Assembly: GCA_027315365.1 (NCBI GenBank)
Contig: DAHUYF010000055.1
Coordinates: forward strand, 62,001 to 126,000
DNA: 64,000 nucleotides
Direction of reading: 5' to 3'
From: Rhodospirillales bacterium
Lineage (GTDB): Bacteria > Pseudomonadota > Alphaproteobacteria > ATCC43930 > CGMCC-115725
Part shown: one piece after another, positions 49,270-54,988 of the stretch
How positions within the stretch are numbered: the stretch's first letter is position 1
How the letters are laid out: the number at the start of each line of letters is the position of its first letter
Position numbers and translations under genes: made by a program
Notes under the pieces: generated by a model
Database searches by the model: none
The model's input: only the letters and a program-made list of their open reading frames with translations
Told to the model about the DNA's origin: nothing

Positions 49270-50856
49270 TCAATGTCCCTGGCTCGACGGCGGCGGAGGC
49301 GCCACCACCTTGCGCATCAGCGGCACCATGGCGGTGGCGACGACGAAGCAAAGCGCGATCGTCAGGAAGGCGTCGGAATAGGTATCGACCTGCGCCTCGC
49401 GCCAGGCAAGCGACCACAACCGCCGCATCGCCGCCGCCTCGCCATGGAGCGCGTCGCCGCCGAGCGCCAGGGCGTAGGCGGCGCCGAGCCGGTGCAGCGC
49501 CGCCACCATGGCGGCATTCGTCGTGTTGAGATGCTCGGCGAGCCGCAGGAAATGCAGGTTGGTACGATCGTTCAGGATCGTGCCGCAGCCGGCGATGCCG
49601 ATGGCGCCGCCGAGATTGCGCATCAGGTTGAAGAGCCCGGAGGCGAGCTTGAGCCGCTCCGGCGCCAGCCCGCCCAGCGTCAGGGTCACCGTCGGCGCCA
49701 CGGCAAATTGCTGCGCGAAGCCGCGAAAGGCTTGCGGCAGCAGCAGCTCGCGCCAGCCCCAATCATGGGTGATCGGCGTGAAGTTCCACATACTGACCGC
49801 GTAGCAGGCGAGGCCGAACATCATCAGCCAACGCAGATCGACGCGTCGAGCCAAGAAGGTGTAGATCGGGATTCCGAGCACCTGGAAAATGCCGGTGGTG
49901 AAGACGGCGAGCCCGATCTGCAGCGCGCTGAAGCCGCGCACGCGGGCAAGGAACAGCGGCGTCAGATAGATCGTCGCGAAGATGCCGATGCCGGTGACGA
50001 AGGAGAAGAGGCAGCCGAGCGAGAAATTGCGGCTCCTCAGTGCGCGCAGATCGACCACCGGCCTCGCATGGCTCAGGCTGCGCCAGATGAAGGTCGGCCC
50101 GGCGATGCCGGCGATCCACGCCGTCATGCGGATGGTGTCGTCGCCGAACCAGTCCCAGCGCGGCCCCTCCTCGAGCGTATATTCCAGGCAGCCGAGAAAC
50201 ACCGCCATCAGCGCCATGCCGAAATAGTCGGCGCCGCGCAGCAGCGACAGATCCGGCCGGTCGATCCGCACCAGGATCGGCACCACCACGGCGACGAAGA
50301 TCCCCGGCACCAAATTGATGAAGAAGAGCCAGTGCCAGGAATAATTGTCGGTGATCCAGCCGCCCACCGTCGGACCCAGCGTCGGCGCCAGCGAGGACAA
50401 CGCGCCGACCGTGGCGGCGGCGATCACACGCTGATGCCCGCCGAAGAAGATGAAGGCGGCGGTGAAGACGGTCGGGATCATCGAGCCGCCGAGGAAGCCC
50501 TGCAGCGCGCGAAACGCGATCATGCTCTGGATATCCCAGGCCCAGCCGCACAGCAGGCTGGTCGCGGTGAAGCCCACCGCCGAGGCGGCGAACAGCCAGC
50601 GCGTCGACATCACCCGCGACAGCCAGCCCGACAGCGGGATGACGATGATCTCGGCGATGAGATAGCTGGTCTGCACCCAGGAGATCTCGTCGGGGCTCGC
50701 CGACAGCCCGCCGCCGATATCGGCGAGCGAGGCCGAGACGATCTGGATGTCGAGGAGCGCGATGAAGAATCCGACGCACATCGCGCCGAAGGCGAAGACC
50801 CTGCCCGCCAGCGACGGTTCTGCCGGCGCCGCCCGCGAGATCGCCGCGACGGTCAC
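49270..50856 (-). CDS. emrB: EmrB/QacA-type MFS multidrug exporter (DHA2)
   Basis: 528 residues with 14 predicted helices. Signature motifs include L-D-I-Q-I-V-S-A-S-L, W-V-Q-T-S-Y-L-I-A-E-I-I-V-I-P-L-S-G-W-L-S, R-A-L-Q-G-F-L-G-G and G-P-T-V-G-G-W-I-T-D-N-Y-S-W-H-W-L-F-F-I-N. It expels hydrophobic drugs or metabolites using the proton gradient. The GTG start at 50856 overlaps the emrA stop (GTGA). It forms a tripartite-type pump with the membrane-fusion protein emrA, under the upstream MarR gene. Confidence 0.93.
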   Translation of the reverse strand: MTVAAISRAAPAEPSLAGRVFAFGAMCVGFFIALLDIQIVSASLADIGGGLSASPDEISWVQTSYLIAEIIVIPLSGWLSRVMSTRWLFAASAVGFTATSLLCGWAWDIQSMIAFRALQGFLGGSMIPTVFTAAFIFFGGHQRVIAAATVGALSSLAPTLGPTVGGWITDNYSWHWLFFINLVPGIFVAVVVPILVRIDRPDLSLLRGADYFGMALMAVFLGCLEYTLEEGPRWDWFGDDTIRMTAWIAGIAGPTFIWRSLSHARPVVDLRALRSRNFSLGCLFSFVTGIGIFATIYLTPLFLARVRGFSALQIGLAVFTTGIFQVLGIPIYTFLARRVDLRWLMMFGLACYAVSMWNFTPITHDWGWRELLLPQAFRGFAQQFAVAPTVTLTLGGLAPERLKLASGLFNLMRNLGGAIGIAGCGTILNDRTNLHFLRLAEHLNTTNAAMVAALHRLGAAYALALGGDALHGEAAAMRRLWSLAWREAQVDTYSDAFLTIALCFVVATAMVPLMRKVVAPPPPSSQGH

Positions 50857-51956
50857 GGCCTGCCTGCCGCGCCGCGCTGATCCACCGACACCGCCACCGA
50901 GAGCCCCGGGCGCAGCCGGCCGAGCGTGGCGGCATCGCCCTCCAGCGCGATGCGCACCGGCACGCGCTGCACGATCTTGGTGAAGTTGCCGGTGGCGTTC
51001 TCGGGCGGCAGGATGCTGAACTCGGCGCCGGTCGCCGGCGCCAGGCTGAGGACGCGGCCGTGAAACACCTCGCCGGGCAGCACGTCGGCGACCACCGAGG
51101 CCGGCTCTCCGGGCCGCATCGCCGCGAGCTGGCTTTCCTTGAAGTTGGCGTCGATCCAGAGGCCGCGCGCCGGCACCACCGACAGAAGCTGGCCGCCGAT
51201 GGCGGCAAAGGCGCCCACCCGCGCGCTGCGATTGCCGATGGTGCCGTCGATCGGCGCGCGCAGCTCGGTATATCCCAGATTGAGCTGGGCGAGATCGCGA
51301 TCCGCCTGCGCCTGGCCCAGCGCGGCCGCGGTCTGCTGCTTCTGCGTGTCGATGACGTCGAGCCGGCGCTCGGCCGCCTCCAGCGCCGCCCGCGCCTTCT
51401 GCCCCTCGGCCAGCGCTTCCTTGTAACTGGCGTCGGCCTTCTGGAAGCTCTGCACCGAGGCGGCGGAAAGGGCGGCGAGCGTGCGGTAACGGCTTTCGTC
51501 ATCGCGCGCGCGCGCGGTCTCGGCATCGGCGGCGGCGATGCCGGCCTCCGCTTCGGCCACCAGCGCCGCTTGCAGGCGGCGGTTGGCCTCGAGATTGGCA
51601 AGCGTCGCGTGCTGCGCCGCCACCGCCGCAGTCGCCTTGTCCAGCGCCGCGCGGTAGTCGCGATCGTCAAGCTTCGCCAGCAGGTCGCCGGCATGGACCG
51701 CCTGGTTGTCGGCCACCATCACCGCGGCGATGAGGCCCGAGACCTTGGGCGCGATCACGGTGACGTCGCCGCCGACATAGGCGTCATCGGTGCTCTCCTG
51801 ATAGCGCCCGACGGTCCACCACTCATGCCCGTACCAGGACGCGCCGACCGCGACAAGGAGCCCGATGGCGGCGAGCCCCAGTCGTTTGAGATGCCGCCGC
51901 GTGGCGGGACGCGCGGCAGACGCTGCCGGATTTCGCGCGAGTGTCGTCTCGGTCAT
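50853..51956 (-). CDS. emrA: EmrA-type membrane-fusion (HlyD) protein
   Basis: 367 residues. One N-terminal transmembrane helix (about 27-45) is followed by a biotinyl-lipoyl-like half (S-T-D-D-A-Y-V-G-G-D-V-T-V-I-A-P-K-V-S-G-L-I), a long coiled-coil hairpin (about 105-205) and a second lipoyl half Y-T-E-L-R-A-P-I-D-G-T-I-G-N-R. It bridges EmrB to an outer-membrane channel. The marR gene ends 30 bases upstream on the same strand, giving the order marR-emrA-emrB. Confidence 0.93.
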   Translation of the reverse strand: MTETTLARNPAASAARPATRRHLKRLGLAAIGLLVAVGASWYGHEWWTVGRYQESTDDAYVGGDVTVIAPKVSGLIAAVMVADNQAVHAGDLLAKLDDRDYRAALDKATAAVAAQHATLANLEANRRLQAALVAEAEAGIAAADAETARARDDESRYRTLAALSAASVQSFQKADASYKEALAEGQKARAALEAAERRLDVIDTQKQQTAAALGQAQADRDLAQLNLGYTELRAPIDGTIGNRSARVGAFAAIGGQLLSVVPARGLWIDANFKESQLAAMRPGEPASVVADVLPGEVFHGRVLSLAPATGAEFSILPPENATGNFTKIVQRVPVRIALEGDAATLGRLRPGLSVAVSVDQRGAAGRP

Positions 51957-51986: not shown

Positions 51987-52451
51987 CTAGCGCGCTGCCG
52001 CGGCGAGATCGTCGGCCAGTTCGCTCGCCGACACCGCCCGCATCATGGCGCGCAGCTCGCGGCTGCGCTCGGCGCCGAACACCGCCTCGAACCGCGCCTG
52101 CGCCTTGGCCCAGCCCTTGATCGCGGCGGCGAGCCGCGCCGCCCCGGCCGCGGTCAGGTGCAGCTCCTTGCTGCGGCGGTCGGTGCTGCCCGTCACCGCG
52201 GCGACCAGCCCCTCGCGCTGCAGCGGCTGGATGTTCCGGCCGAGCGTGGTCCGGTCCATCACCATCTCGCGCGCGAGCGCGTTGATGGTCATCGGCCCCC
52301 GGCGCTTCAGCTTCGCCAGGATCGAGAATTGCGTGGTGCGCAGCCCGGCGGGCGCCAGGCACTGATCGTAGAACTGGCTGACGTGCCGCGCCGCCTGGCG
52401 CACCGCGAGGCAGTTGCACAGCTCGGGCTTGAGGTCGACATCATCGCTCAT
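51987..52451 (-). CDS. MarR family transcriptional regulator
   Basis: 154 residues. N-terminal Cys pair (L-C-N-C, near 13-15) precedes a winged helix with L-R-T-T-Q-F-S-I-L-A-K-L, M-T-I-N-A-L-A-R-E-M-V-M-D-R-T-T-L-G-R-N-I-Q-P-L and wing residues D-R-R-S-K. It probably represses emrAB and itself, with relief by pump substrates. Paired N-terminal cysteines could permit redox sensing (inference). ATG 52451 follows GGGGA; a TTG at 52469 is rejected. A palindromic promoter lies just upstream. Confidence 0.9.
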   Translation of the reverse strand: MSDDVDLKPELCNCLAVRQAARHVSQFYDQCLAPAGLRTTQFSILAKLKRRGPMTINALAREMVMDRTTLGRNIQPLQREGLVAAVTGSTDRRSKELHLTAAGAARLAAAIKGWAKAQARFEAVFGAERSRELRAMMRAVSASELADDLAAAAR

Positions 52452-52462
52452 CGCGTCCCCGC

Positions 52463-52512
52463 TTGACAAACGTGTATATGCGCTTATATAGGTGCATATA
52501 CGCTGATGTCAA
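52463..52512. promoter_or_regulatory. Divergent promoters sharing one -10 element, with MarR-type operator
   Basis: TTGACA (52463-52468), 16 bases, TATATA (52485-52490) reads rightward; TTGACA on the other strand (52512-52507), 16 bases and the same TATATA reads leftward. The whole 50 bp is thus a palindrome around one self-complementary -10. Inside it GTATATGC (52474-52481) and GCATATAC (52494-52501) form an inverted repeat fitting a MarR operator. It would drive marR-emrAB leftward and the ketopantoate reductase-like gene rightward. Confidence 0.85.
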
Positions 52513-52564: not shown

Positions 52565-53509
52565 TTGCGCATTCTGGTGGTGGGCGCGGGCGGGATCGGC
52601 GGCTATTTCGGCGGAAGGTTGCTGGAGGCCGGCGGCGACGTCACCTTCCTGGTGCGGCCGCGCCGAGCCGCCGAACTGGCGCATACCGGCCTGGTCATCC
52701 GCAGCCGGCTCGGCGATGTCCGGGTGCCGGCCCCGCCGACGGTCACCGCGGACGCGCTGACGCCGCGCTTCGATCTCATGCTGCTGAGCTGCAAGGCCTA
52801 TGACCTCGAAGGCGCGATGGCGTCCTTCGCACCGGCGATGGCGCCGGAGACCGCGATCCTGCCGCTGCTCAACGGCATGCGCCATCTCGATGCGCTGGCG
52901 GCGCGCTTCGGTGCCGGGCGGGTGCTCGGCGGCCAATGCCTGATTTCGACGGCGCTCGACGCGGAAGGCCGCGTCCTGCACCTCAACGACAGCCATACCC
53001 TCACCTTCGGCGAACGCCGCGGCGGCCGCTCGGCGCGGGCGGAGGCGATCGCCGCCGCGTTCTCGGCTGCCCGCTTCGAGACCAGGCTCAGCGAGGCGAT
53101 CCTGCAGGAGATGTGGGAGAAATGGGTGTTCATCGCCGCCGCGGCGGGCATCACCTGCCTGATGCGCGCCGCGATCGGCGACATCGTCGCCGCCGGCGCG
53201 GCGCCGCTGGCGCTGGCGCTGTTCGAGGAATGCGCCGGCATCGCCGCGGCCGAGGGCTTTCCTCCGCGCGCCGCCTTCCTCGAGCGGATGCGCGCCATCT
53301 TCGCCGCGCCCGGCTCGCTGCTCACCGCGTCGATGCTGCGCGACATCGAGCGCGGCGCAGGGATCGAGGCGGACCACATCCTCGGCGACCTGCTCGGCCG
53401 CGCCGCCGCCTCGTCGCGGGAGCGCTCGCTGCTGGCCATCGCCTACGCCCATCTCAAAGCCTACGAGGCGCGGCGCGCACGCGATGGCGCCGCGCTGCCC
53501 GCCGGCTGA
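52565..53509 (+). CDS. Ketopantoate reductase family protein (ApbA/PanE)
   Basis: 314 residues from TTG 52565, placed just after AGGGAGAG and directly before the Rossmann strand (R-I-L-V-V-G-A-G-G-I-G-G-Y-F-G-G). The NADP motif G7-x-G-x-x-G is complete; later signatures are L-L-L-S-C-K-A-Y-D, W-E-K-W-V-F-I-A-A and the C-terminal S-M-L-R-D-I-E-R-G. PanE makes pantoate from ketopantoate, and panB is encoded 1.6 kb downstream, so a pantothenate role is plausible, but the family also contains other 2-ketoacid reductases. A longer in-frame ATG at 52514 lacks a ribosome site. Confidence 0.85.
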   Translation: MRILVVGAGGIGGYFGGRLLEAGGDVTFLVRPRRAAELAHTGLVIRSRLGDVRVPAPPTVTADALTPRFDLMLLSCKAYDLEGAMASFAPAMAPETAILPLLNGMRHLDALAARFGAGRVLGGQCLISTALDAEGRVLHLNDSHTLTFGERRGGRSARAEAIAAAFSAARFETRLSEAILQEMWEKWVFIAAAAGITCLMRAAIGDIVAAGAAPLALALFEECAGIAAAEGFPPRAAFLERMRAIFAAPGSLLTASMLRDIERGAGIEADHILGDLLGRAAASSRERSLLAIAYAHLKAYEARRARDGAALPAG

Positions 53510-53524
53510 GACCAAGGAGACGCC

Positions 53525-54988
53525 ATGCCGCTCAACGAACCCGCACTCCGCGACGCCGTCGAACCCGCCGGCGGCGCCGCGCCCACGGCCGGGCGTCATG
53601 ATCCGCGCACCCGCCTGCTGCTCGAGGCGCCGATCGCCGCCACCCTGCTGCGGCTGGCCGCGCCCAATATGCTGGTGATGCTGGCGCAGGCATCGACCGG
53701 GCTGATCGAGACCTATTTCATCGGCAAGCTCGGCACCGAACCGCTGGCCGGCGTGGCACTGGTCTTCCCGCTGCTGATGCTGATGCAGATGATGTCGGCG
53801 GGGGCGATGGGCGGCGGAATCTCCTCCGCCATCGCCCGCGCGCTCGGCGCCGGGCGCCGCGGCGACGCCGATGCGCTGGCGTTGCACGCGCTCGCCCTGG
53901 CGCTGGGCTTCGCCCTTGTCTTCATGCTCGCGCTGCTCGGCGGCGGCCGGCATCTCTATCGCGCGATGGGCGGCAGCGGCGGCGTGCTGGCGGCGGCGCT
54001 GGCCTATTCGAACGTGGTCTTCGCCGGCGCCGTCCTGATCTGGGTCTTCAACTCGCTGGCCAACGTCATCCGCGGCACCGGCGACATGGCGACGCCGGCG
54101 ATCGTCACCTGCGCCGGCGTCGTGGCGCTGATCCCGCTCTCGCCCTGCCTGATTTTCGGCTGGGGGCCGTTTCCGCGGCTCGGGATCGCCGGCGGCGCCG
54201 TGGCGATGCTCGCCTTCTACGCCGCCGGCAGCCTCGCCCTGGCGGCATATCTGCGCTCCGGTCGGTGCGTCGTCCGCCTCGCCTTCCGCGGCATGCGCCT
54301 GCGCCGGCGGCTCTTCGCCGACATCCTGCGCGTCGGCGCGGTGGCGGCGCTGATCACGCTGCAGACCAACCTCACCATTGCCATTGCCACCGGCCTGGTC
54401 GGCCGCTTCGGCGCCGGCGCGATCGCCGGCTACGGCACCGGCTCGCGTCTCGAATACCTGCTGGTGCCGCTGGTCTTCGGCCTCGGCGGCCCGCTCGTCG
54501 CGATGGTCGGCACCAATCTCGGCGCCGGAAGGCGCGACCGCGCCTTGCGCACCGCCTGGATCGGCGCCGCCATCGCCTCGGCGCTGTGCGAGGCGATCGG
54601 CCTCGCCGCCGCCGCGGTGCCGGGCGCCTGGCTGCGGCTCTTCGACAGCGATCCCGCGATGCTCGACGCGGGATCGCGCTACCTGCACGCGGTCGGTCCG
54701 GCCTACGGCCTGTTCGGCCTCGGTCTCGCGCTCTACTTCGCCGCGCAAGGCGCCGGGCGGCTGCTCTGGCCGCTGCTGGCGAATGTCGCACGCCTGGCGA
54801 TCGCGGCGGGCGGCGGTCTGCTGGTGCTGCGCTGGGGCGGTGGCCTCACTCCCGTCTTCCTCGCGCTCGCTGCGGCGCTCGCCGCCTTCGGGCTGATCAA
54901 TGCCGCGGCATTGGCCGCCGGCGCGTGGTTCGCCGGTGAAACCGCGCTGCGCCCGCAACCGCTGCTGCGCCCGACCGACCGGCGATGA
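53525..54988 (+). CDS. MATE family efflux transporter
   Basis: 487 residues with 12 helices in two MatE repeats. Typical elements are L-A-A-P-N-M-L-V-M-L-A-Q, I-G-K-L-G-T-E-P-L-A-G-V-A-L-V-F-P, V-F-N-S-L-A-N-V-I-R-G-T-G-D-M and G-P-L-V-A-M-V-G-T-N-L-G-A-G-R-R-D-R-A. It should export cationic compounds with Na+ or H+ exchange. It lies 15 bases after the PanE-like gene, thus in the same transcript and perhaps under the same MarR promoter. Confidence 0.93.
   Translation: MPLNEPALRDAVEPAGGAAPTAGRHDPRTRLLLEAPIAATLLRLAAPNMLVMLAQASTGLIETYFIGKLGTEPLAGVALVFPLLMLMQMMSAGAMGGGISSAIARALGAGRRGDADALALHALALALGFALVFMLALLGGGRHLYRAMGGSGGVLAAALAYSNVVFAGAVLIWVFNSLANVIRGTGDMATPAIVTCAGVVALIPLSPCLIFGWGPFPRLGIAGGAVAMLAFYAAGSLALAAYLRSGRCVVRLAFRGMRLRRRLFADILRVGAVAALITLQTNLTIAIATGLVGRFGAGAIAGYGTGSRLEYLLVPLVFGLGGPLVAMVGTNLGAGRRDRALRTAWIGAAIASALCEAIGLAAAAVPGAWLRLFDSDPAMLDAGSRYLHAVGPAYGLFGLGLALYFAAQGAGRLLWPLLANVARLAIAAGGGLLVLRWGGGLTPVFLALAAALAAFGLINAAALAAGAWFAGETALRPQPLLRPTDRR

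Follow-up and report, generated by a model that had tools for sequence, protein, structure and literature searches.

The question raised by this locus is whether a single 50 bp element could serve genes transcribed away from it in both directions, and whether one repressor would switch the two sides together or one at the expense of the other.

Sequence of the element and its expected frequency

The element occupies positions 52463–52512 of the window (the whole 64 kb stretch of DNA analysed here). Direct reading of the plus strand gives TTGACA at 52463–52468, a 16 bp spacer, TATATA at 52485–52490, a second 16 bp spacer and TGTCAA at 52507–52512. The minus strand also reads TTGACA-N16-TATATA and uses the identical six bases as its −10 box, exactly as the earlier note had described, and 19 of the 25 pairs in the 50-mer are complementary, which confirms the 50 bp palindrome reported there. 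The promoter features are as follows:

52463–52468, plus strand: putative outward −35 box TTGACA, towards panE-MATE (direct reading)
52485–52490, both strands: putative shared, self-complementary −10 box TATATA, serving both directions (single occurrence of TATATA in the 64 kb window)
52507–52512, minus strand: putative −35 box of marR-emrAB (TTGACA on the minus strand; direct reading)

Palindromy of 19/25 is not rare alone, as one other 50 bp stretch in the window and one in 20 Markov-simulated windows reach it. Candidate positions for the second stretch in the window are 52049, 61414 and 63410. The element is rare because of its hexamer content, not its degree of palindromy: besides the single TATATA, TTGACA occurs three times in 64 kb, and the 18-base pattern TTGACA-N16-TATATA-N16-TGTCAA, with up to two mismatches, was unique to 52463–52512 in a search of 61 genomes. 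TATATA matches the −10 consensus at 4/6 positions and does not end in the T that is conserved in sigma-70 −10 boxes; an alternative −10 box, TATAAG with an 18 bp spacer, is found on the marR strand.

Shared −10 bidirectional promoters are defined by −10 elements that overlap on the two strands and have −35 boxes on their flanks, as found here; divergent starts in this class typically lie 10, 18 or 23 bp apart. Starts predicted from the −10 positions fall at ~52497 (plus strand, outward) and ~52478 (minus strand, marR), about 18–19 bp apart. A hairpin or attenuator reading of the palindrome was set aside because both predicted transcripts begin inside it and would hold only half of it.

Gene content on either side

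Transcription units point away from the element on both sides, the arrangement expected of a bidirectional promoter. The gene order agrees with the earlier assignment of marR-emrAB to one side and panE-MATE to the other:

49270–50856, minus strand: emrB-like MFS efflux transporter (Pfam MFS_1, E = 8e-52)
50853–51956, minus strand: emrA-like membrane-fusion protein of the HlyD family (Pfam HlyD_D23, E = 1.3e-19)
51987–52451, minus strand: marR, MarR-family repressor, probable start ATG 52451 (Pfam MarR, E = 1.6e-9)
52565–53509, plus strand: panE/apbA-like ketopantoate reductase, probable start TTG 52565 (Pfam ApbA, E = 2.8e-37)
53525–54988, plus strand: MATE efflux transporter (Pfam MatE, E = 1.9e-38)

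The MATE gene is followed by panB on the plus side. The frames called at 52469 and 52463 are longer and cross the promoter; PanE homologs (55–56% identity), divergent to marR at L093 and L094, align from TTG 52565.

Predicted MarR operators

Seventy distinct upstream regions of marR homologs were gathered from several genome groups. A 16 bp near-palindrome with the consensus AGGYGYATATRCRCCT recurs in these regions and stands alone at many of them. Two copies, with centres 20 bp apart, are predicted within the element:

52470–52485: predicted MarR operator A, 14/16 to AGGYGYATATRCRCCT; fills the outward spacer and covers the predicted marR start (~52478)
52490–52505: predicted MarR operator B, 14/16 to AGGYGYATATRCRCCT; fills the marR spacer and covers the predicted outward start (~52497)

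Among 71 scored regions, made up of 68 regions upstream of marR and three other sites, 66 have at least one predicted operator of 11/16 or better. Of these 66, 25 carry one copy and 41 carry two or more, at a loose threshold that lets in some chance second sites; multiple copies are often 20–23 bp apart. Upstream of distant marR homologs there is a single GTGTATATACAC-like palindrome, and lone operator palindromes are found at L095 (16/16), L086, L071, L072 and L097. The predicted palindromic sites thus lie over marR's own promoter and are conserved with the gene, as is characteristic of MarR regulators, and this conservation supports the earlier proposal that MarR controls the element. At L025, L031 and L034, where the marR homologs share ~41–44% identity, the palindrome GTTGATATCAAC takes the place of the GTGTATATACAC type, so operator specificity seems to shift within the marR family. 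A literature search for the operator sequence found nothing relevant.

The inner inverted repeat described earlier, GTATATGC at 52474–52481 and GCATATAC at 52494–52501, is present, and its arms do make an 8 bp inverted repeat of the kind that could suggest one operator for a single MarR dimer. That reading is very improbable, however, as the arm centres lie 20 bp apart and homologs bear one arm-like palindrome alone. Taken as 12 bp sequences, the two arms also match at 10/12 whether compared in direct or in inverted order, because each arm is nearly self-complementary. The repeat is best read as parts of two complete dimer sites; in place of the one dimer site first proposed, there are two full predicted operators, each inside a promoter spacer.

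Promoter direction among marR homologs

Of the 68 marR upstream regions, 11 have facing TTGACA/TGTCAA pairs that span 49–52 bp end to end, whereas dinucleotide shuffling predicts 0.1. The earlier note had proposed conservation in relatives as a check on its reading, and the facing −35 boxes are indeed kept in these 11, while many relatives keep one direction only. Several facing-pair relatives have a poor −10 box in one direction (L108, L109). The recurrent module consists of TTGACA, a 16 bp spacer that coincides with the operator, and TATATT or a similar hexamer. It occurs singly and outward at the MATE-divergent loci L069, L071, L072 and L075, and singly and marR-ward at L086 (emrAB). The −35 hexamers therefore go with transcriptional direction and do not belong to the operator.

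A divergent MATE gene is found at 19 other homologous loci and is the commonest divergent partner of the marR family in the set. Divergent panE genes occur at L023 in addition to L093 and L094, and further divergent genes encode MaoC, DUF302, GNAT, thiolase and tautomerase proteins. The window is the sole locus of the set with both emrAB and MATE partners, and it carries both modules. By automatic count, a divergent gene is present at 8 of 11 facing loci and 35 of 57 non-facing loci, which gives no clear separation. The count at facing loci becomes 10 of 11 once L099 (where the divergent MATE gene continues past the contig end) and L100 (with a divergent short-chain dehydrogenase-like frame) are added by hand.

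Promoter direction was compared between the two kinds of neighbourhood using E. coli weights on an alphaproteobacterial genome. Mean scores at emrAB-downstream loci (n = 8) were 12.4 inward and 4.8 outward, against 6.6 inward and 7.9 outward at MATE-divergent loci (n = 19). The Mann-Whitney p-values of 2e-4 and 2e-3 treat loci as independent and, because the loci are related by descent, overstate the contrast and are indicative only; the contrast amounts to only two changes on the marR tree, and an independent-pairs test on the tree had only 1–2 independent contrasts to draw on. An outward −35 box (at least 4/6) is in place at 15 of 19 MATE-divergent homologs but at 1 of 8 emrAB-downstream homologs. 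All eight of the latter have a strong inward promoter, six of them with an inward −35 box of at least 5/6 in the fixed-offset count.

These comparisons bear on the possibility that the element has a genuine promoter for marR-emrAB alone, with two operators in tandem, in which case the outward TTGACA would be incidental and panE-MATE promoted from elsewhere. Many double-operator homologs are consistent with it in having no outward −35 box (L101, L102, L103, L104). One of these, L104 (G427:C7), comes from another family; counted from the marR −35 box, it is identical to the window at 38 of the first 40 positions, and TGTCAA is nevertheless missing. Upstream there is just a short divergent frame of 71–83 codons. 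Against this possibility, a perfect outward −35 box in register is also found at L099, L100, L108, L109 and L038, facing pairs far exceed the shuffled expectation, and an outward promoter goes together with a divergent MATE gene. A promoter for marR-emrAB only is therefore unlikely, and the comparison of homologous loci instead supports promoters in both directions with a shared −10 box, as the earlier note had it.

At L104, the operator-(−10)-operator core has 30 bases identical to the window, and marR is followed not by emrAB but by a gene for an RND-type fusion protein and a frame of 1033 aa.

Operator modules away from marR

In G025 and G031, the genomes with the two closest marR homologs, emrAB is located away from marR. 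These emrAB genes (69–70% and 79–80% identical) are preceded by TTGACA-operator-TAT-operator, without an outward −35 box. The tie between emrAB and the operator is therefore independent of adjacency to marR. The double-operator modules upstream of emrAB at L105 (G031:C606) and L106 (G025:C528) are candidate regulon members, as is a module at L107 (G440:C448) upstream of a gene for a predicted 350 aa protein. No MarR homologs were found in the plasmid collection.

The predicted repressor

The MarR protein of the window scores 37.9 bits against PF01047 (curated cut-off 24.6), as expected for a winged-helix MarR protein. Its best PDB sequence match is 4fx0 (E = 1.1e-19), which, with 4fx4, we take to be MosR of Mycobacterium tuberculosis. 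The sequence LCNC, in the region of residues 12–14, aligns with ECAC of 4fx0, and the N-terminal CxC, the MosR-type motif, is kept in 59 of 68 MarR homologs. The pair, at the start of helix 1, aligns between the two regulators, which have different gene neighbours. In MosR, oxidation joins two N-terminal cysteines in an intrachain disulphide, and DNA is released (PMC5823404). The window MarR resembles this redox sensor and may respond to an oxidative signal, and the kept CxC suggests a family of oxidation-sensing efflux regulators in Alphaproteobacteria.

Proposed mechanism

Positions 52463–52512 are best interpreted, with a probability of about three in four, as a repressible bidirectional promoter with a shared −10 box and two MarR operators as its spacers. 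The single self-complementary −10 box is flanked on either side by a consensus TTGACA, and RNA polymerase would be able to bind it in either orientation. With a MarR dimer on operator B, the marR spacer and the panE start region would be blocked; with one on operator A, the outward spacer and the marR start region would be. Each dimer would obstruct one spacer and the other start, so both directions would be shut and opened together. In the simplest reading, one repressor thus switches drug-efflux genes on both sides by joint repression and release; here, we infer MarR binding, the start sites and repression. More speculatively, MarR could be released by oxidation of its CxC pair, as in MosR.

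The earlier note had further proposed that only one polymerase can occupy the element at a time, which follows from the geometry and from work in E. coli, and that marR-emrAB and panE-MATE could be exclusive alternatives, which is doubtful given that the repressor spans both start regions. A related reading would have polymerase competition, or unequal filling of the operators, alternate the two sides between cells or conditions. Competition is possible once the promoter is strong, because the −10 box is shared and the −35 boxes are perfect on both sides, and it has been seen in E. coli bidirectional promoters, though there it depended on strong activation of one direction (PMC12825309). At basal activity, however, five such promoters showed little competition, and losing one direction did not raise the other (PMC12825309). 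Partial operator binding should not choose a direction either, because each operator covers parts of both promoters. A direction selector of this kind is quite improbable, and just as improbable is cell-to-cell variation in whether EmrAB or PanE-MATE is expressed, brought about by polymerase in one orientation measurably suppressing the other after MarR release. With joint release expected and little basal competition in E. coli (PMC12825309), exclusive alternatives are unsupported as the main function.

Relation to known systems and significance

Bidirectional promoters with a shared −10 box were described by Warman, Grainger and colleagues, with E. coli acrA/acrR and soxS/soxR among the examples (PMC12825309). 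Like the present element, these have facing −35 boxes, one −10 region on both strands and starts some 18–19 bp apart (a predicted distance in the present case), and acrA/acrR likewise combines an efflux operon with the gene of a repressor. The present element differs in having a −10 box that is fully self-complementary, two perfect −35 boxes, and predicted operators of the locus's own MarR as its spacers. Paired operators are known from the MarR regulator SCO3205 of Streptomyces coelicolor, which has two pseudopalindromic operators between divergent genes and binds as one dimer per palindrome in its crystal structure (PMC3737563). In both loci, one intergenic region has two similar palindromes, positioned so that the regulator gene and a divergently transcribed gene could come under control, but the SCO3205 operators are taken to serve one gene each, whereas those of the window lie inside one promoter with a shared core. 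Shared-core bidirectional promoters and paired MarR operators are both known, and the present element combines them; it is not a new class.

The locus offers an unusually clean, nearly symmetric putative bidirectional promoter in an alphaproteobacterium, in which predicted sites for its own repressor make up the two spacers. Homologous loci with a marR-ward module only, an outward one only, or both together provide a natural series. With it one can ask if promoter direction and gene neighbourhood evolve together, and if competition between polymerases has any effect at promoters with two perfect −35 boxes. From the operator consensus, in turn, a MosR-like regulon can be predicted across Alphaproteobacteria.
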